NCBI RefSeq assembly: GCF_003815775.1
Contig: NZ_CP033926.1
Coordinates: 62,001 to 126,000, forward strand
Direction: 5' to 3'
Origin: Chryseobacterium joostei
GTDB taxonomy: Bacteria; Bacteroidota; Bacteroidia; Flavobacteriales; Weeksellaceae
Length of the DNA: 64,000 bases
Shown here: positions 44,959 to 53,147 of the stretch, piece by piece
Layout of the letters: each line of letters starts with the position of its first letter
How positions within the stretch are numbered: the first letter of the stretch is position 1
Program-made: the position numbers and the translations under genes
The notes under the pieces: model-generated
What the model was told of the DNA's origin: nothing
The model's input: only the letters and a program-made list of their open reading frames with translations
Database searches by the model: none

Positions 44959-46263
44959 ATGAAAAAGATATGGCAAAAGGACGACCTGGCCACCAATATA
45001 TTAGTCAATAACTTTACAGTAGGAAAGGATCTTGACTTTGATGAACGTTTGGCAAAATATGATGTCAAAGGTTCCATGGCGCACTGCAAAATGCTTGCAG
45101 AAACCGGAATTATCTCCAACGAAGAATCAGAACAGATGCTATCTGTACTGAATGATATTTTAAATAAAATTGAAGATGGGAGTTTTGAAATTGATAAAGA
45201 TGCTGAGGATATCCATTCTCAGATAGAAGCAATCCTAATTGCAGAATTAGGAGATACAGGAAAGAAAATCCACACCGCAAGATCGAGAAATGATCAGGTT
45301 TTGTTGGATATTAAACTGTACCTATTAGATGAAATTCGTGAAATAACAGCGCTTACTGATGAGTTTTTCCAGATTTTAATTCAGTTGGCAGACCAGCATA
45401 AAAATGTTCTGCTTCCAGGATATACCCACTTGCAGATTGCTATGCCATCATCCTTTGGATTATGGTTTGGAGCTTATGCAGAAGCTCTTTTGGATGATGT
45501 GGAAATGCTGTTTTCAATAAAAAATATCATCAACAAAAACCCATTGGGATCTGCTGCAGGATATGGTTCGTCTTTCCCTATTAATCGTGAAAGTACTACC
45601 TATAACCTGGGATTTCAGTCGATGAATTATAATTCGGTATATGCCCAGATGACCCGTGGAAAGTCAGAAAAATTACTGGCGATGTCAATGGCTACCTTAG
45701 CTGGAACACTGGGGAAATTTGCCTATGATGTGTGCTTGTATTTGAATCAAAATTTTGATTTTATAAGCTTTCCAAAGGAGTTTACAACAGGAAGCAGCAT
45801 TATGCCACATAAAAAGAACCCGGATATCTTTGAACTGGTTCGTGCACGATGCAACAGAATCCAGTCCTTACCAAATGAGTTAATCCTATTGACCAACAAT
45901 CTTCCGTCAGGATATCACAGAGATGTACAATTGACCAAGGAAATTCTCTTCCCTGCAATAGATTCCCTGAAGGAATGTCTGGAGATCTTAAGCTATACTT
46001 TGCCGAATATTCAGGTAAAGGATGGTATTCTGGAGGATGAAAAGTACAAATACCTTTTCAGCGTAGAGAAGATTAATGAAGAAGTGAAAAATGGAAGTTC
46101 TTTCCGTGATGCTTATGTAAAAGTAGGACAGGAGATTGAAAACAATGAGTTTGACTTTGAGCTAGGAAACTTAGATCATACCCACCAGGGAAGTATAGGA
46201 AATCTTTGCCTGGATAAAATAGAATATCAGTTCAATAAATTGAAAAATAAATTATTGGGCTAA
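44959..46263 (+). CDS. argH: Argininosuccinate lyase
   Basis: ArgH splits argininosuccinate to arginine and fumarate, the last step. The 434 residues contain HTARSRNDQVLLD and the superfamily signature GSSIMPHKKNPD with its catalytic Ser. It is somewhat shorter than E. coli ArgH (457) but complete. It ends the cluster and is followed by a likely terminator. Confidence 0.96.
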   Translation: MKKIWQKDDLATNILVNNFTVGKDLDFDERLAKYDVKGSMAHCKMLAETGIISNEESEQMLSVLNDILNKIEDGSFEIDKDAEDIHSQIEAILIAELGDTGKKIHTARSRNDQVLLDIKLYLLDEIREITALTDEFFQILIQLADQHKNVLLPGYTHLQIAMPSSFGLWFGAYAEALLDDVEMLFSIKNIINKNPLGSAAGYGSSFPINRESTTYNLGFQSMNYNSVYAQMTRGKSEKLLAMSMATLAGTLGKFAYDVCLYLNQNFDFISFPKEFTTGSSIMPHKKNPDIFELVRARCNRIQSLPNELILLTNNLPSGYHRDVQLTKEILFPAIDSLKECLEILSYTLPNIQVKDGILEDEKYKYLFSVEKINEEVKNGSSFRDAYVKVGQEIENNEFDFELGNLDHTHQGSIGNLCLDKIEYQFNKLKNKLLG

Positions 46264-46285
46264 AACATAAACCATTAAGATAATA

Positions 46286-46342
46286 AAAGGCCTGAGTAGA
46301 CATACAATCTAAAATTACTTTTAGATCACGCCTTATTTTTTT
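46286..46342 (+). terminator. Likely terminator of the arginine cluster
   Basis: An inner stem ATCTAAAA / TTTTAGAT with loop TTAC (46307-46326) sits inside an outer AAGGC / GCCTT pair and is followed by ATTTTTTT. Confidence 0.7.
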
Positions 46343-46676
46343 ATCGTTTGTAAATCCTTAATCTTATTTATTTAGGCTGTCTTAATGGTTTTTTATTCCG
46401 CTCTTTGAATTTGATGATTGATAAATTGAACTATTAAGTGGATGAAGACTTGAAGGTAAGTTAAGAAAATCTTCTGCATACAATTTTATCAGAGATAAAA
46501 TCTTTGCGCCTTAAAGCATAAAGTTTATAATTTTCTTTTGCGTCTTTGCGTTTTTCTAATAAAATAAAAGATCAGAAAAAACTGTTGGAAAACGCAAAGC
46601 ATTTTCAAAACGCAAGAAAATCTAAGATTTTCAGCAAGTGAAATAGGAATTAATAATGAGTTTAAAATAAAAGGGA
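46343..46676. repeat. Gene-free region with inverted repeats
   Basis: The stretch holds CTTTGCGTTTT (46544-46554) and its complement AAAACGCAAAG (46589-46599), and the perfect palindrome GAAAATCT-A-AGATTTTC at 46616-46632. Words such as TTGCGTCTTTGCG recur. They resemble dispersed flavobacterial intergenic repeats. I see no gene. Confidence 0.55.
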
Positions 46677-47138
46677 TTATTCCAGATCAATCTTGAACTT
46701 GGTAGATTTTTTTACCTCATGCAAAACTATGGAACTGTGGTATTGCCCAATGTTTGGAAGATTGGAAATCACATTAACCGCAAATTCATTATAAGAGTTG
46801 ATGTCTTTTGCAATAATCTTTAACATATAATCGTACTCTCCGGAAAGACTGATGATTTCCTGTACTTCATCATGACTTCCAATATGTTTTTCAAAGGTTT
46901 CCAATACTTTCTTGGATTGTTCCTTGAGACGAACGTTACAGTAGACTACAATATTTAAACCCAGTTTTTCACGGTTTAAGAGGCCAACATACTTTTCAAT
47001 GATCCCGTGCTTCTCCAATTGTTTGATTCTTTCATACGTTGGAGTAAAGGTAAGACCAATCTTTTCTGAAATTTCCTTAACAGATAAAGTGGAGTCTTCC
47101 TGTATAATGCTGAGAATCATTTTGTCTTTTAAATCCAT
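46677..47138 (-). CDS. Lrp/AsnC-family transcriptional regulator
   Basis: A 153-residue protein with an N-terminal winged helix-turn-helix (STLSVKEISEKIGLTFTPTYERIKQLEKHGII) and a C-terminal RAM ligand domain (EVQEIISLSGEYDYMLKIIA). These octameric feast/famine regulators respond to amino acids. It is placed between argH and the pyrimidine operon and divergent from the latter, so arginine or carbamoyl-phosphate genes are plausible targets. A minus-strand TATTTTTG (47166 to 47159) is a promoter candidate. Confidence 0.93.
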   Translation of the reverse strand: MDLKDKMILSIIQEDSTLSVKEISEKIGLTFTPTYERIKQLEKHGIIEKYVGLLNREKLGLNIVVYCNVRLKEQSKKVLETFEKHIGSHDEVQEIISLSGEYDYMLKIIAKDINSYNEFAVNVISNLPNIGQYHSSIVLHEVKKSTKFKIDLE

Positions 47139-47224
47139 AAAACTAATTTGAGTTTTAACAAAAATATCACTTTTAAATGAGAATAAGAAAATACCAAAGG
47201 TTTTAATTTATTTGAAACTTTGAT

Positions 47225-47255
47225 TTTGTAGGTTCATAAAATTTCTGTATCTTTG
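47225..47255 (+). promoter_or_regulatory. Promoter of the pyrB-carA-carB operon
   Basis: TTTG at 47225-47228 and TATCTTTG at 47248-47255 are 19 bases apart, a full match to the Bacteroidota -33/-7 consensus and the best promoter in the window. Transcription should start near 47260, almost at the leader-peptide ATG (47262). Confidence 0.85.
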
Positions 47256-47261
47256 CACCTA

Positions 47262-47333
47262 ATGAATAAAAAAGCATTTATATCATTAGATTTACCGGGC
47301 GAAAGCGCCCTTTACGATATTTATTGTTATTAG
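47262..47333 (+). CDS. Putative leader peptide of the pyrB attenuator
   Basis: A 23-codon ORF (MNKKAFISLDLPGESALYDI then YCY, stop TAG) begins 6 bases after the promoter -7 element and ends exactly where the terminator stem starts: the TAG at 47331-47333 shares two bases with it. No amino acid is enriched, so it does not look like an amino-acid attenuator. Its role would be to let a ribosome that keeps pace with RNA polymerase block terminator folding, as pyrL does in E. coli. The start is nearly leaderless. It is too short to be recognised by homology. Confidence 0.65.
   Translation: MNKKAFISLDLPGESALYDIYCY
47297..47310 (+). promoter_or_regulatory. Candidate transcription pause hairpin in the pyrB leader
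   Basis: GGGCG-AAAG-CGCCC is a five-pair all-GC stem in otherwise AT-rich DNA. The next 21 bases (47311-47331) contain 13 T, giving a U-rich transcript where polymerase would slow when UTP is scarce. This order matches the E. coli pyrBI leader. Confidence 0.65.
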
Positions 47334-47359
47334 CGAAGATTGTTGTCTTCGCTTTTTTT
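47332..47359 (+). terminator. Attenuator terminator upstream of pyrB
   Basis: Stem AGCGAAGA / TCTTCGCT with loop TTGTTG (47340-47345) is followed by seven T (47353-47359). It stands between the promoter and pyrB, 19 bases before the pyrB ATG, so transcription must pass it to express the operon. Confidence 0.85.
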
Positions 47360-47378
47360 ATGCCCAAAAATTAGAATT

Positions 47379-48269
47379 ATGTTTACGATTACAGAACTAA
47401 GTACCGAGAGAATCAACAGTATACTGACAGAAGCACTAGCTTTTGCAAACGGGAAAACTGCTAAAATTGAAGGAGAAGTTTTTTGCTCAAACCTTTTCTT
47501 CGAAGACAGTACAAGAACAAAGACAAGCTTTGATATTGCAGAAAGAAAACTGGGACTTCAGGTTGTTCCATTTGATGCTTCGCACAGTTCTGTAAATAAA
47601 GGAGAAAGTCTTTATGATACCGTGAAGACCATTGAAAGCCTGGGAGTAAATTTGGTTGTCATCCGTGATAAAAAGGACAGATACTTCGAGGAATTAAAGA
47701 ATATTAAGATTCCTGTGATCAATGGAGGAGACGGAACTGGAAATCATCCATCGCAATGTATGCTGGATTTGATGACGATCTATCAGGAGTTTGGAAAATT
47801 TGAGGGGTTAAAAGTAGGAATTGTAGGAGATGTAAAACACAGTCGTGTAGCCAATTCAAACGCTGAGGCCTTAAGAAGATTAGGAGCTAAGGTATACTTC
47901 TCGGGACCGGAACACTGGTTTGATGAGGGAGCTTTAATCAACGGAACTTACCTTGCGCTTGATGAGCTTATTGCTGAAGTAGATGTTCTGATGCTATTAA
48001 GAATCCAACATGAGAGACATGATGCGGCAATGAGTTTTACTGCATCTGAATATCATAAAAGATACGGCTTGACTAAAGAAAGAGAGCAGGCGATGAAGAA
48101 ACAAGCAATCATCATGCACCCGGCGCCTATCAACAGAGGGGTAGAAATAGATTCTGATCTGGTGGAATGTGAACGTTCAAGAGTTTTCAAGCAAATGGAA
48201 AACGGAGTCTTTGCAAGAATGGCAATCTTGAAAGAAGCGTTAGAAGAAAAAGGGTTTACGTTTAAGTAA
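47379..48269 (+). CDS. pyrB: Aspartate carbamoyltransferase catalytic subunit
   Basis: PyrB joins carbamoyl phosphate and aspartate in pyrimidine synthesis. From MFTITELS the protein has 296 residues. The phosphate loop is [13 protein letters not shown] (Lys in place of the usual second Arg), with [17 protein letters not shown] and [10 protein letters not shown] as later motifs. An in-frame extension to 47340 would translate through the attenuator and is rejected. No pyrI regulatory subunit follows; carA starts after 167 bases. Confidence 0.95.
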
Positions 48270-48315
48270 ATTGTAAAAAGTATAGTGTAAAAAGTACAAG
48301 ATACAAATCGGGGCG

Positions 48316-48413
48316 AAGTACATTGTACATCCGACATTATAAAAAAAAGAATAGTAAAAGTACAGCAGGCAGGTAAGATACATTTTACAGCTGACATTGT
48401 ACAAAAAGAAAAT
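48316..48413 (+). repeat. Imperfect 60-base direct repeat between pyrB and carA
   Basis: Two copies of a unit of about 40 bases, exact spacing 60 bases, start near 48316 and 48376 (for example CATTGTACATCCGACATTAT at 48321 against CATTTTACAGCTGACATTGT at 48381). The 48270-48436 gap has no other feature. Confidence 0.65.
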
Positions 48414-48436
48414 AATAGAAAATCTAATTTTTAAAA

Positions 48437-49510
48437 ATGAAGAAAAAATTAATACTGGAGTCCGGTGAAGTGTTTCATGGAGAAGGTTTCGGCGCAGAAT
48501 TGGAAACTGCAGGAGAAGTAGTTTTCAATACCGGAATGACAGGGTATCAGGAATTGATTTCTGACCCATCGTATTGTGGTCAGATAGTTTGTATGACCTA
48601 TCCGCTTATCGGAAATTATGGTATTAACCGTGATGATTATGAAAGTATCGAGCCGGCAATCAAGGGGCTTATCGTAAAAGAACTTTGCGATCTTCCTTCC
48701 AATTTCCGTACTCAGATTACTTTAGATGAATTATTTAAAAAGAAAAACCTTTCAGGAATTTCAGGAATTGATACAAGAAGACTGACAAGAATTCTTCGTA
48801 ACTCTGGAGTAGTAAAAGGAAAAATTGTAAACGCTGATGCTGATGAAACTGCAGTAGCTTCTGAGCTGAAGTCTACAAGTTTCCCAACCAATCAGGTAGA
48901 GGAGGTTTCTACAAAAACTCCTTATGCAAACCCAAACAGAGGTTTCAAGGTAGTATTGGTAGACTTCGGTGCAAAACTGGGAATCATCAGAGAATTATCA
49001 CAAAGAAACTGTGATATCATTGTAGTGTCTCATGATACAACAGCAGAAGAAATCCTATTGATGAATCCAGACGGGATCATGCTTTCAAACGGTCCTGGAG
49101 ATCCGGAAGATGTACCACATGCTTTAGATATGATCAGAGGCTTACTAGGAAAAGTTCCAATTTTTGGAATCTGCTTAGGACACCAATTGATCGGTCTTGC
49201 TTGCGGTGCAAAAACTTTCAAATTGAAATTCGGACACAGAGGAGGAAACCACCCGGTATTGGATCTGGAGAAAAATACAGTAGCAATAACTTCTCAAAAC
49301 CACGGTTATGCGGTAGATCAGGAAAGCTTAAAAGGAACAGACCTTATCGAAACGCACATCGCGCTGAACGACAGAACAAACGAAGGTCTAAAACATAAGA
49401 TTCATCCTTGCTTCTCTGTTCAGTATCACCCTGAAGCTAGCCCAGGTCCAGAGGACGCAAACTACCTGTTTGATGAATTTATTCAAATGATGGAAGACTT
49501 TAAAAAGTAA
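48437..49510 (+). CDS. carA: Carbamoyl-phosphate synthase small (glutaminase) subunit
   Basis: CarA hydrolyses glutamine and feeds ammonia to CarB. The 357 residues have the N-terminal CPSase small-chain domain (NTGMTGYQELISDPSY) and a class I amidotransferase domain with nucleophile Cys in FGICLGHQLIGLA and the His-Glu pair in YHPEASPGP. It is separated from its partner carB by a four-helix-bundle gene, an unusual interruption. Confidence 0.97.
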   Translation: MKKKLILESGEVFHGEGFGAELETAGEVVFNTGMTGYQELISDPSYCGQIVCMTYPLIGNYGINRDDYESIEPAIKGLIVKELCDLPSNFRTQITLDELFKKKNLSGISGIDTRRLTRILRNSGVVKGKIVNADADETAVASELKSTSFPTNQVEEVSTKTPYANPNRGFKVVLVDFGAKLGIIRELSQRNCDIIVVSHDTTAEEILLMNPDGIMLSNGPGDPEDVPHALDMIRGLLGKVPIFGICLGHQLIGLACGAKTFKLKFGHRGGNHPVLDLEKNTVAITSQNHGYAVDQESLKGTDLIETHIALNDRTNEGLKHKIHPCFSVQYHPEASPGPEDANYLFDEFIQMMEDFKK

Positions 49511-49518
49511 GAAAGACT

Positions 49519-49951
49519 TCAGATATTAGACATCAGATAACAGACTCTATCATGCATAACTTTGAGAAATTAGTTTTTTGGCAAAAATCGATTGAACTTG
49601 CAAAACAGGTTTATATCATTTGTTTAGAATTACCCAAAGATGAAAAGTTTGGTTTGATTTCTCAAATTAAAAGATCTGCAATCTCCATTCCTTCAAATAT
49701 AGCGGAAGGCGCAGGAAGAAATAATGATACAGAATTTTATCATTTTCTTGGTATTGCAAATGCTTCCTCTTTTGAGTTGCAGACCCAGTTAATTTTAACT
49801 AGAGAATTAAATTTACTTGATGTAGAAAAAGTTAACAGTTTAATATCAAACCTGAATGAAATTCAAAGAATGATTTATACATTCAAATCTAATTTAAAAA
49901 AGTAAAACATCCTGTTGGATGTCTGAAATCTGACATCTAACATCTTGTATC
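49519..49951. mobile_element. Putative mobile cassette: four-helix-bundle gene flanked by inverted heptad-repeat arrays
   Basis: The left array (49521-49545, heptads AGATATT, AGACATC, AGATAAC, AGAC) and the right array (49921-49945, TCTGAAA, TCTGACA, TCTAACA, TCT) are inverted copies, 20 of 25 positions matching. They bracket a complete ORF at 49552-49905 that interrupts the normally adjacent carA and carB. A small hairpin CATCC-TGTT-GGATG lies at 49908-49921. No transposase is encoded. Confidence 0.55.
49552..49905 (+). CDS. Four-helix-bundle protein (23S rRNA intervening-sequence/S23 family)
   Basis: A 117-residue protein of the TIGR02436/PF05635 type, beginning FEKLVFWQKSIELAKQVY, with SQIKRSAISIPSNIAEGAGR and FYHFLGIANASSFELQTQL, all diagnostic. 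Members form pentameric barrels of helical bundles; they occur inside 23S rRNA intervening sequences, as accessory proteins (Avd) of diversity-generating retroelements, and as scattered orphans whose function is unknown. No reverse transcriptase or rRNA is near. It is in line with carA and carB (41 and 59 base gaps) and must be cotranscribed. Confidence 0.92.
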   Translation: MHNFEKLVFWQKSIELAKQVYIICLELPKDEKFGLISQIKRSAISIPSNIAEGAGRNNDTEFYHFLGIANASSFELQTQLILTRELNLLDVEKVNSLISNLNEIQRMIYTFKSNLKK

Positions 49952-49964
49952 TAAAAAAAGAAAA

Positions 49965-52900
49965 ATGGCAAAACGTACAGATATAAAAACAATTTTAGTA
50001 ATCGGTTCAGGACCTATCATTATTGGTCAGGCAGCTGAATTTGATTACGCAGGAACGCAGGCTTGTCTGTCTTTAAAGGAAGAAGGCTACAAGGTAATTT
50101 TGATCAATTCAAACCCTGCAACAATCATGACGGATGTGGAAATCGCTGATAAAGTATACATCGAGCCGATTTCATTACAGTTTGTAAGCCACATCATCAG
50201 AAAAGAGCGTCCGGATGCATTATTACCAACACTTGGAGGTCAGACTGGTCTGAACATGGCGGTTGAGTTGGAAAAATCAGGAATTCTTGAAGAATGTAAA
50301 GTGGAGGTATTAGGAACCAAGCTTTCCGCAATCAACAGAGCAGAAGACAGAGACCTTTTCCGTGAACTGATGAGAGAATTGAACGAACCGGTTCCTGAGT
50401 CTGATATTGTAAACACAGTAGAAGGAGCTATTGCCTTTGCTGATGAGATTGGTTATCCTGTAATTGTTCGTCCTGCCTTTACAATGGGAGGTACCGGAGG
50501 TGGTATTGCTTCTACAGAGGCAGAATTAAAGGAAATTGCTGAACTTGGTTTGAAATACAGCCCTGTTACACAATGTCTTATTGAAAAATCAATCGCAGGT
50601 TTCAAGGAAATTGAATACGAAGTAATGCGTGATGCAAATGACAATGCGATTGTGGTTTGTAACATGGAAAATATAGATCCTGTAGGAGTTCACACAGGAG
50701 ACTCAATTGTAGTGGCACCCTCTCAGACACTTTCAGACAGAGAGTATCAGTTACTGAGAAATGCTTCTCTTAAAATTATCAGAGCCCTTGGAATTGAGGG
50801 TGGATGTAACGTACAGTTGGCTTTAGATCCACACTCTTTCGAATATTATATCATTGAGGTGAATCCAAGAGTTTCCCGTTCATCAGCGCTGGCGAGTAAA
50901 GCAACAGGGTATCCGATTGCAAAGATCGCTGCAAAAATTGCGGTAGGATTAACACTGGATGAAATCATGAACCCGGTAACAGGAAAAACATACGCATGTT
51001 TCGAACCTGCTCTGGATTATGTGGTAACTAAGTTCCCAAGATTCCCATTTGATAAATTCGAAACTGCGGACAGAAGACTTTCTACCCAAATGAAAGCAAC
51101 GGGTGAAGTAATGGCAATTGGAAGAAACTTTGAAGAGTCTTTACAAAAAGCAATCCGTTCTTTAGAAACAGGAATCAAGCACTTAGGATTAAAAACAAAA
51201 CAAGCTCAGGCACTTACTGCTGAAGAAATCGAAAGAAGAATCAGAGTTTGTGATGATGAGAGATTATTCATCATTGGCGATGCCTTAAGAAGAGGTTACG
51301 ACTGGGAACAGATTGTAGAATGGAGTAAAATTGATAAATTCTTCATCTGGAAACTGAAAAAACTAGTTGACTTCGAAAAAGTAATTGCTGAAAATAAATT
51401 TGATAAAGAAACGCTGATCCAAGCTAAAAAGTTAGGATTTGCAGATATCAACATTGCTGTTCTTTGGGATGTAAAAGAACGTGAAATTTTCAACTTCAGA
51501 AAAGAAAACGGAGTGATGCCGGTTTACAAAATGGTAGACACTTGTGCTGCTGAATTTGAAAGTGAAACACCATACTTCTACGGAACATACGAGGAAGAAA
51601 ACGAAAGTGTAGTTTCAGATAAAGAAAAAATCATTGTACTAGGTTCAGGGCCAATCAGAATCGGACAAGGAGTTGAATTTGACTACGCAACAGTTCATTC
51701 AGTTTGGGCAATCAAAGAAATGGGGTACGAAGCAATCATCATCAATAACAACCCTGAAACGGTTTCCACAGACTTCTCAATCTCAGATAAACTATACTTC
51801 GAGCCTCTTACAGAAGAAGATGTAATGAATATCATCGATCTTGAAAAGCCAAAAGGAGTGGTGGTTCAGTTTGGAGGACAAACTGCAATTAACCTTGCAG
51901 ATAAATTGGCTTCTCACGGAGTACAGATTCTGGGAACTTCTCTGGAAGACCTTGACAGAGCTGAAAACAGAGATAAATTTGAAAAAGCCCTGCAGGAGAT
52001 GGGAATTCCTCAGCCAAAAGGAAGAACATCCACTTCTAAGGAAGAAGCTATAAAAATTGCCAACGAAATTGGTTATCCCGTATTGGTTCGTCCAAGCTAC
52101 GTTCTTGGAGGTAGAGCAATGGAAATTGTATACGCAGAAGCAGAACTGGCTCACTATATGGAGAATGCAGTAGATGCAAGTCCTGAACACCCTGTTTTGG
52201 TTGACAAATACATGGTAGGAAAGGAAATTGAAGTAGATGCAATCTGCGACGGTGAAACAGTGGTAATCCCTGGGATTATGGAGCATATCGAAAGAGCGGG
52301 AGTTCACTCCGGAGACTCTATCGCAGTATATCCGCCACAGAATATTTCACAAAGCGAAATTGATACTTTAGTAGATTATACAAGAAGACTGGCAAAAGGC
52401 CTTAAGGTTATTGGATTGATGAACATTCAATACGTACTTTTTGAAGGAAACGTATATGTAATCGAAGTGAACCCACGTTCTTCAAGAACAGTTCCTTTCT
52501 TATCCAAAATTACAGAGGTTCCAATGGCTAACCTTGCTACAAAAGCAATCTTAGGTCAGAAACTTGCAGATCTAGGCTATAAAGACGGGTTAGTACCAAA
52601 CAAAGAGGGTGTTTTTGTAAAAGTACCGGTATTCTCTTTCTCAAAACTAACAAAAGTTGATATCTCTTTAGGACCAGAAATGAAGTCTACAGGAGAAGTT
52701 ATGGGGAAAGATACAACCCTTGAAAAAGCGCTTTACAAAGGTCTTGTAGCAGCAGGAAGAAAAGTTCCTATGCACGGATCTATCCTTTTCACAGTGGCAG
52801 ATAAGCATAAAGAAGAAGCGGCTGACTTAGCAGCAAGATTCCATGAAGTAGGATTCAGAATCTGGGCTACAGAAGGAACAGCGAAATTCTTTGGAGAAAA

Positions 52901-53147
52901 AGGAATCCCTTGCAAAATCGGATACAAAATAGGAGAAGAAAGTGTAAACCTTATCGATCTGATCCAGAAAGGAAAAGTTCAGTATGTTGTGAATACCACT
53001 ACAAAGGGGAAGCAAGCTGAAAGAGACGGATTCCAGATCAGAAGAATGAGTGTTGAAAACGGTGTTCCTTGTCTAACGTCAATGGATACTGTAGAAGCAA
53101 TCTTAAAAGTAATTGAAAGCATGAGCTTCAAAATGGAGACGATGTAA
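49965..53147 (+). CDS. carB: Carbamoyl-phosphate synthase large subunit
   Basis: CarB makes carbamoyl phosphate from bicarbonate, ammonia and two ATP for both arginine and pyrimidine routes. The 1060 residues contain two homologous ATP-grasp halves, each opening with the same motif ([20 protein letters not shown] and [19 protein letters not shown]), and a C-terminal allosteric MGS-like domain (from about residue 930). It is the last gene of the operon and has a strong terminator 27 bases later. Confidence 0.97.

Follow-up and report, generated by a model that had tools for sequence, protein, structure and literature searches.

Short leader ORFs followed by a hairpin and a terminator make up the trp and his attenuators, and PyrR systems control pyrimidine genes at an intrinsic terminator. 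Where a hairpin stabilises a pause of the polymerase, it lies about 10-12 nt from the end of the RNA. The described leader that the present one resembles is pyrL, in front of E. coli pyrBI: in both we find a leader ORF, a hairpin, a U-run 10-11 nt past the hairpin and an intrinsic terminator, and in both the target is pyrB. One source (PMC4824070) reports that, terminators in E. coli reporters are almost fully repressed when the stop lies a few bases 5' of them, and are relieved past about 27-30 nt; that the distance between stop and terminator in amino-acid leaders is greater than 20 bp; and that a ribosome is unlikely, without pausing, to reach the polymerase within the first 100 bp, pausing being what couples both in pyrBI. 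PyrR motifs are treated in PMC3766115, and short ORFs within long 5' UTRs in PMC7366714. A search of the open-access literature, by titles and beginnings of abstracts, returned among the matches listed no report of UTP-sensitive attenuation, or of attenuation at pyrB, in Bacteroidota.

The locus studied here lies in a window of 64,000 nucleotides, the whole stretch of DNA that was analysed, which is part of the 4.89-Mb genome of Chryseobacterium joostei; the family of Chryseobacterium is Weeksellaceae (PMC7660247). In front of pyrB, the first-pass annotation had proposed a UTP-sensitive attenuator of the pyrBI type. We consider it likely that the element is indeed a UTP-sensitive, translation-coupled attenuator, pyrBI-like in its working, and that it controls pyrB-carA-carB. 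Its features are collected in Table 1.

Table 1. Features of the pyrB leader and of the genes that follow it (window coordinates)
Feature	Position	Strand	Basis
-33 element TTTTG (TTTG 47225-47228)	47224..47228	+	direct sequence reading
-7 box TATCTTTG	47248..47255	+	direct sequence reading; then six bases CACCTA, ATG 47262
Transcription start (+1) as predicted, to within 1-2 bases	47260	+	-7 box placement as in PMC9723704
5' stem: CTAATG 47259-47264 (contains start codon) with CATTAG 47284-47289	47259..47289	+	sequence, genus conservation
Near-leaderless leader ORF, 23 codons, stop TAG 47331-47333	47262..47333	+	direct sequence reading
Presumed pause hairpin GGGCG-AAAG-CGCCC, five pairs	47297..47310	+	sequence, genus conservation
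U-rich tract, 21 bases, 13 T	47311..47331	+	direct sequence reading
Intrinsic terminator: stem-loop 47332-47353, T-run to 47359	47332..47359	+	sequence, terminator scan, conservation
pyrB, aspartate carbamoyltransferase catalytic subunit	47379..48269	+	NF002032 357 bits, cut-off 263
carA, carbamoyl-phosphate synthase small subunit	48437..49510	+	NF009475 489 bits
carB, carbamoyl-phosphate synthase large subunit	49965..53147	+	NF003671 1632 bits

Two further genes lie close by. Between carA and carB, at 49552-49905, is encoded a 117-aa four-helix-bundle protein (PF05635, the 23S rRNA intervening-sequence protein family; TIGR02436). The minus strand carries, at 46677-47138, the gene of an Lrp/AsnC-type regulator, whose transcription is directed away from pyrB; on one side of it are arginine genes, recognised by eye, and on the other pyrB-carAB, two pathways that share carbamoyl phosphate.

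Every structural element that had been claimed for the leader is borne out: the -33/-7 promoter, the ORF beginning about two bases past the expected start, the GC hairpin inside that ORF, the T-rich tract, and a terminator whose first arm shares two bases with the leader stop and whose T-run ends 19 bases before the ATG of pyrB. The position of the start depends on the -7 box of Flavobacterium psychrophilum, which spans -12 to -5 (PMC9723704): with the box of the window set likewise, the leader ATG is predicted at +3. Within the phylum, 5' ends as short as this form a minority, with 5.5% leaderless given for F. psychrophilum (PMC9723704) and about 3.7% of 5' UTRs shorter than 10 nt for Bacteroides thetaiotaomicron (PMC7366714). 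Compared with shuffles, the leader of the window folds with z = -2.74. A generic terminator scan of positions 46000-49000 returns the leader terminator as the sole terminator-like site; since 1.5 sites are expected by chance, the terminator alone is without significance in one sequence, and its weight comes from conservation. Rfam yields no family at its gathering score across the window, and the sub-threshold matches in 47150-47500 are all far under their gathering scores. Elsewhere in the same genome, the upstream regions of pyrE and pyrD have a -7 box near the gene, without such a leader; the pyrE match (C1:2359540) lies within an open frame of 461 aa, perhaps a fusion with pyrF.

Within the genus, 80 loci were retained from the pyrB search, all of them Chryseobacterium (80 of the 142 loci encoding a relative; top identity 98%). 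With the window they make 81 leaders, and the set contains 42 distinct ones. All 81 have TAnnTTTG followed by 6 nt and ATG, a TTG or TTTG 17-26 nt 5' of the -7 box, the hairpin stem GGGCG/CGCCC, with ten different loops, and, by sequence, a terminator. Where the leader ORF stops relative to the terminator is conserved in these relatives as well: the stop ends between -2 and +2 of the first terminator base in 79 of the 81, and in the two exceptions the ORF runs into the terminator (L052, stop ending 11 nt inside) or beyond it (L075, 41 nt on). We conclude that the leader arrangement is real, and beyond chance.

The codons of the genus leaders fall in two classes. Codons 6-9, 11-13 and 16-21 are near-invariant, including at synonymous positions (the exceptions are one codon 9 and two codons 19), and codons 3-5, 10, 14-15 and 22-23 are variable, mostly with a change of amino acid, 14-15 being the codons of the loop. 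Since synonymous sites are near-invariant while variable codons mostly change the amino acid, the RNA is held more than the peptide. This bears on the possibility of nascent-peptide arrest, in which the ribosome is halted by the leader peptide that it is making: a similar peptide core is indeed found within Chryseobacterium and genus g32, but the held codons are fixed at synonymous sites, and leader peptides differ among genera. On these two grounds we set the arrest peptide aside, and find it scarcely credible.

Outside the genus, a search of 197 family genomes gave a pyrB match in 163. The other 34 have none at 1e-30, among them the whole of 7 of the 33 genera, and may have lost pyrimidine synthesis. 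From the 113 non-Chryseobacterium family genomes with pyrB, 60 upstream stretches in 23 other genera were picked by hand; genera g17 and g30 were examined separately. Of the -7 boxes in a stretch that lie 40 nt or more 5' of the terminator, the one nearest to it is used, and the first ATG that follows is taken as the start codon. With this rule, TAnnTTTG, an ATG 5-7 nt on and a terminator are present in 60/60 loci, the gap being 6 nt in 52. An ORF counts as open here unless it has a stop that ends over 15 nt short of the terminator. By this measure the ORF is open in 60/60 loci and 23/23 genera, where dinucleotide shuffles would give 7.6 genera; the joint shuffle probability of 5e-12 overstates independence, the genera being related. 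Conservation of the ORF stop thus reaches beyond the genus, with 0/60 loci stopping earlier than this limit. In the control frames, an early stop occurs in 59/60 loci for frame +1 and in 39/58 for frame +2. The leader stop lies within 25 nt before the centre of the terminator loop in 49 of 59 loci; in 9 it lies past the centre, and in one (L144) it comes sooner. The locus missing from the 59, L140, has no stop within its stretch. Leader ORFs of the family are mostly 19-26 codons long, and the phase from ATG to terminator varies among loci, but shifts with the choice of stem boundary and is given no weight here.

For the structural comparison, 56 of the 60 loci were kept (L164 and the duplicates L115, L126 and L131 are out), and 55 of these (L161 out) were aligned with the window and three Chryseobacterium loci, for a total of 59 leaders. 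Terminator pairing is nearly perfect, at 99.6% of cells, and the terminator is the only structure that RNAalifold predicts from the whole alignment. The MAFFT alignment sets the hairpins of Chryseobacterium and g32 out of register, and a structure specified by hand was therefore counted instead: in the main hairpin helix only 78.5% of cells pair, some genera being out of register, and the four counted pairs out of four are changed on both sides, in a compensatory manner.

A leader model (R1) was then searched in 100 family genomes. At E<=1e-3 it matches 64 of them, with 65 matches, many of which are the model's own training sequences, in related genera; 64 of the 65 lie directly 5' of pyrB on the same strand (no pyrB coordinate is listed for genome G045). 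Among the 73 searched genomes that have pyrB, the nine without a match are seven of g17, G015 (E 0.02) and G057 (partial pyrB); at the same threshold there are zero matches in the 27 genomes without pyrB. In 148 genomes of the phylum, at E<=0.1, the model matches three family members and, weakly, three genomes of one distant genus (G324, G335 and G391, family f35, genus g117, E 0.03-0.08). The family genomes also contain 29 secondary matches (E 0.002 to 0.75), 20 of which were read: one resembles a second leader, and the others were rejected as chance terminators by their appearance. Among the latter, a weak match recurs in four g23 genomes (L216-L219), by eye a terminator behind a coding end.

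Two variants deserve description. In G052 (genus g2), carA and carB are split by two ORFs, and carB is preceded by a separate -7 box with an ATG 6 nt on, a 31-codon ORF that passes the terminator, a model match with E 0.003, and no clear hairpin; this stretch looks like a genuine second leader. In three of the six g17 genomes (L240, L241 and L243), an ORF of 64-80 codons started by TTG runs, by eye, through the terminator, and its stop begins 2-24 nt before a divergent pyrB, an arrangement nearer to that of E. coli; for the remaining three genomes, the start of pyrB was not located by the script.

The distance between the end of the best leader hairpin and the terminator is 16-27 nt in 58 of the 60 other-genus loci, and 31 and 42 nt in L143 and L164. 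Compared with codon shuffles, the hairpin has a median p <0.05 in 12 of 23 genera and <0.1 in 15; the median is >=0.05 in 11, the weak cases including L125, L136, L143, L164 and L166. Past the hairpin, the T fraction is still 0.33 at +9 but 0.68 at +10 (56 loci in 22 genera, with the window added and L125, L126, L136, L143 and L164, whose hairpins are doubtful, left out). From +10 to +19, T stands at 0.55-0.85, and C accounts for 0-5% and G for 0-9% of the bases; in the part of the ORF that precedes the hairpin, the T fraction is 0.33. As the tract begins at about +10 and pause hairpins sit 10-12 nt back, the next bases to be added at the putative pause would be mostly U. The scarcity of C in the tract fits UTP better than CTP; the tract is G-poor as well as C-poor, within an A+T-rich leader.

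One reading in which the leader does not sense UTP has a fixed partial terminator and a short ORF that shift the expression of pyrB, for example by re-initiation, and leader genes have been proposed to boost expression in this way (PMC4833913); the response of our leader to UTP is, so far, one that we infer. However, a fixed terminator leaves both the narrow range of hairpin distances and the C-poor U-tract at about +10 unexplained, and we hold it to be improbable. In another reading, the hairpin or the 5' stem binds a metabolite or some protein, and the ORF is incidental. The near-invariant nucleotides that flank the hairpin within Chryseobacterium speak for it, but stem and loop sequences differ across genera, the openness of the ORF in all 23 genera is left unexplained, and the searches found neither an Rfam family in the window nor a PyrR gene in the 197 family genomes. 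A riboswitch or protein site, rejected on the differing stems and loops together with the lack of an Rfam match, is thus quite unlikely.

The likeness to pyrBI is one of geometry alone, and we do not claim descent from the enteric leader. Measured alike, the U-run of pyrL is at +11 and the tract of the family at about +10. Several features differ: pyrL, with 44 codons, reaches 47 nt beyond the first terminator base, whereas the family ORF ends at the terminator edge; the hairpin of pyrL ends 38 nt before the terminator, well outside the range of the family; and the family leader is near-leaderless and followed by carA-carB, where E. coli has pyrI instead. The near-leaderless start would make the leader a variant of the pyrBI type, and by its sequence it is neither a PyrR leader nor a known Rfam element: attenuation by PyrR (Bacillus type; RF00515) differs in that no PyrR was found in the 197 family genomes and no Rfam match in the window. 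The trp and his attenuators differ as well, with a stop more than 20 bp from the terminator (PMC4824070), while the family stop is at its edge, without a strongly repeated codon.

The last comparison matters for the idea that a ribosome stalls, for lack of charged tRNA, at Tyr, Ile, Asn or Phe codons, and switches the terminator as in amino-acid operons. The tail of the leader is rich in these four residues; in 16 genera the tract falls in the same reading frame, and Asn-Ile-Tyr/Phe tails therefore recur. Moreover, signs of leader-peptide attenuation are reported at amino-acid operons of F. psychrophilum (PMC9723704), and the 5' arm of the terminator, before its 3' arm is made, has a probability of 0.67 of pairing upstream in the window, where the leader may thus, on this folding prediction, contain an antiterminator. 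This pairing varies among genera, however, with genus means of 0.08-0.67 and a mean of 0.37 (the pairing partners were not compared). The tract is clearly in other frames in g23 (L114), g11 (L151) and g7 (L165), and only there; the most frequent residue, Phe, accounts for 11.3% of leader-peptide residues (genus-weighted), with no run of codons for a single residue; the stop is nearer the terminator than in the amino-acid leaders of PMC4824070; and the product of the operon is pyrimidines. On stop distance, reading frames and residues, we set amino-acid attenuation aside as very unlikely, even though the leader may contain an antiterminator.

We now turn to PyrR. The absence of PyrR, which had been noted for the window, extends to the whole genome, where the best match to NF003549 has 31 bits for a cut-off of 138, and to the family, with 0/197 genomes at E<=1e-10. 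In the order, PyrR is above cut-off in 76 of 119 genomes, and none of the 14 family members is among them, so that PyrR is usual in the other families. Outside the family, 29 genomes have no match above cut-off, and 14 of these are no larger than 0.6 Mb. A PyrR gene lies 5' of pyrB in 19 of 20 hand-picked stretches from outside the family, with a small ORF between them in L183, and none is seen in L188; 13 of the 20 are backed also by the profile search of the order genomes, and the remainder by eye. Among the matches listed, identity of PyrB to the query is 62-100% in the family (51-53% in g17) and at most 46% outside. The distribution points to an exchange of regulators, with PyrR 5' of pyrB in other families and the leader in Weeksellaceae: PyrR would have been lost, and the leader gained in its place.

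A last element of the leader is the 5' stem, which contains the start codon. The stem CTAATG/CATTAG is present in all 81 Chryseobacterium leaders, identical in 79 and with a G-U pair in two. It is patchy elsewhere: the seven bases ending in ATG can form at least 5 contiguous pairs in 41 of 61 leaders, many with p 0.03-0.15 against shuffles. Examples are CCAATG with CATTGG in L117 and L156, and stems with a four-base loop in L118 (g12), L114 (g23) and L154 (g24). The predicted pairing of the AUG is 0.65, compared with 0.41 in codon shuffles (genus means), and its median p is <=0.05 in 7 of 24 genera and <=0.1 in 9. The stem may let no ribosome load after the first, or may shield the 5' end.

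From the parts, their spacing and their conservation, we infer a mechanism that involves pausing, a UTP signal, translation of the leader, and coupling of ribosome and polymerase. Transcription would start about two bases 5' of the leader ATG. At low UTP, RNA polymerase would pause with the hairpin just out of the enzyme and mostly U to add; the ribosome on the leader ORF would then catch up and get to the stop at the edge of the terminator, where it would cover the 5' arm, and transcription would enter pyrB. When UTP is ample, the polymerase would stay ahead of the ribosome, the terminator would fold, and transcription would end. These leaders appear, by their sequences, to combine a short stop distance with a pause-like element.

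The attenuator is favoured by the openness of the ORF, the spacing of the hairpin, the onset of the U-tract, the differing peptides and the absence of PyrR; conservation of the stop, absence of PyrR and a U-tract close to the E. coli position are also what supports the initial proposal of UTP-sensitive attenuation. Against it, one can put the weak hairpins, the tract read mostly in one frame, the scarcity of G as well as C in the tract and its place in an A+T-rich leader, the upstream pairing of 0.67, the layout of g17, and pyrE and pyrD without such a leader. A broader conjecture, which we offer tentatively and with more doubt than belief, is that PyrR was replaced across the family by a gauge of UTP made of ribosomes on a virtually leaderless mRNA, with tight coupling needed, and that in several genera the 5' stem acts as a kinetic gate: by capturing the start codon, it would restrict loading to the short time before the stem forms.

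If the attenuator works as proposed, Chryseobacterium and its relatives would set their pyrimidine synthesis by UTP, through the coupling of ribosome and polymerase, with a leader that is probably independent of the enteric pyrBI leader and yet has a nearly equal spacing from hairpin to U-run. It would also provide a compact natural reporter for tight coupling of transcription and translation in Bacteroidota, and for whether near-leaderless AUGs load fast enough to matter.
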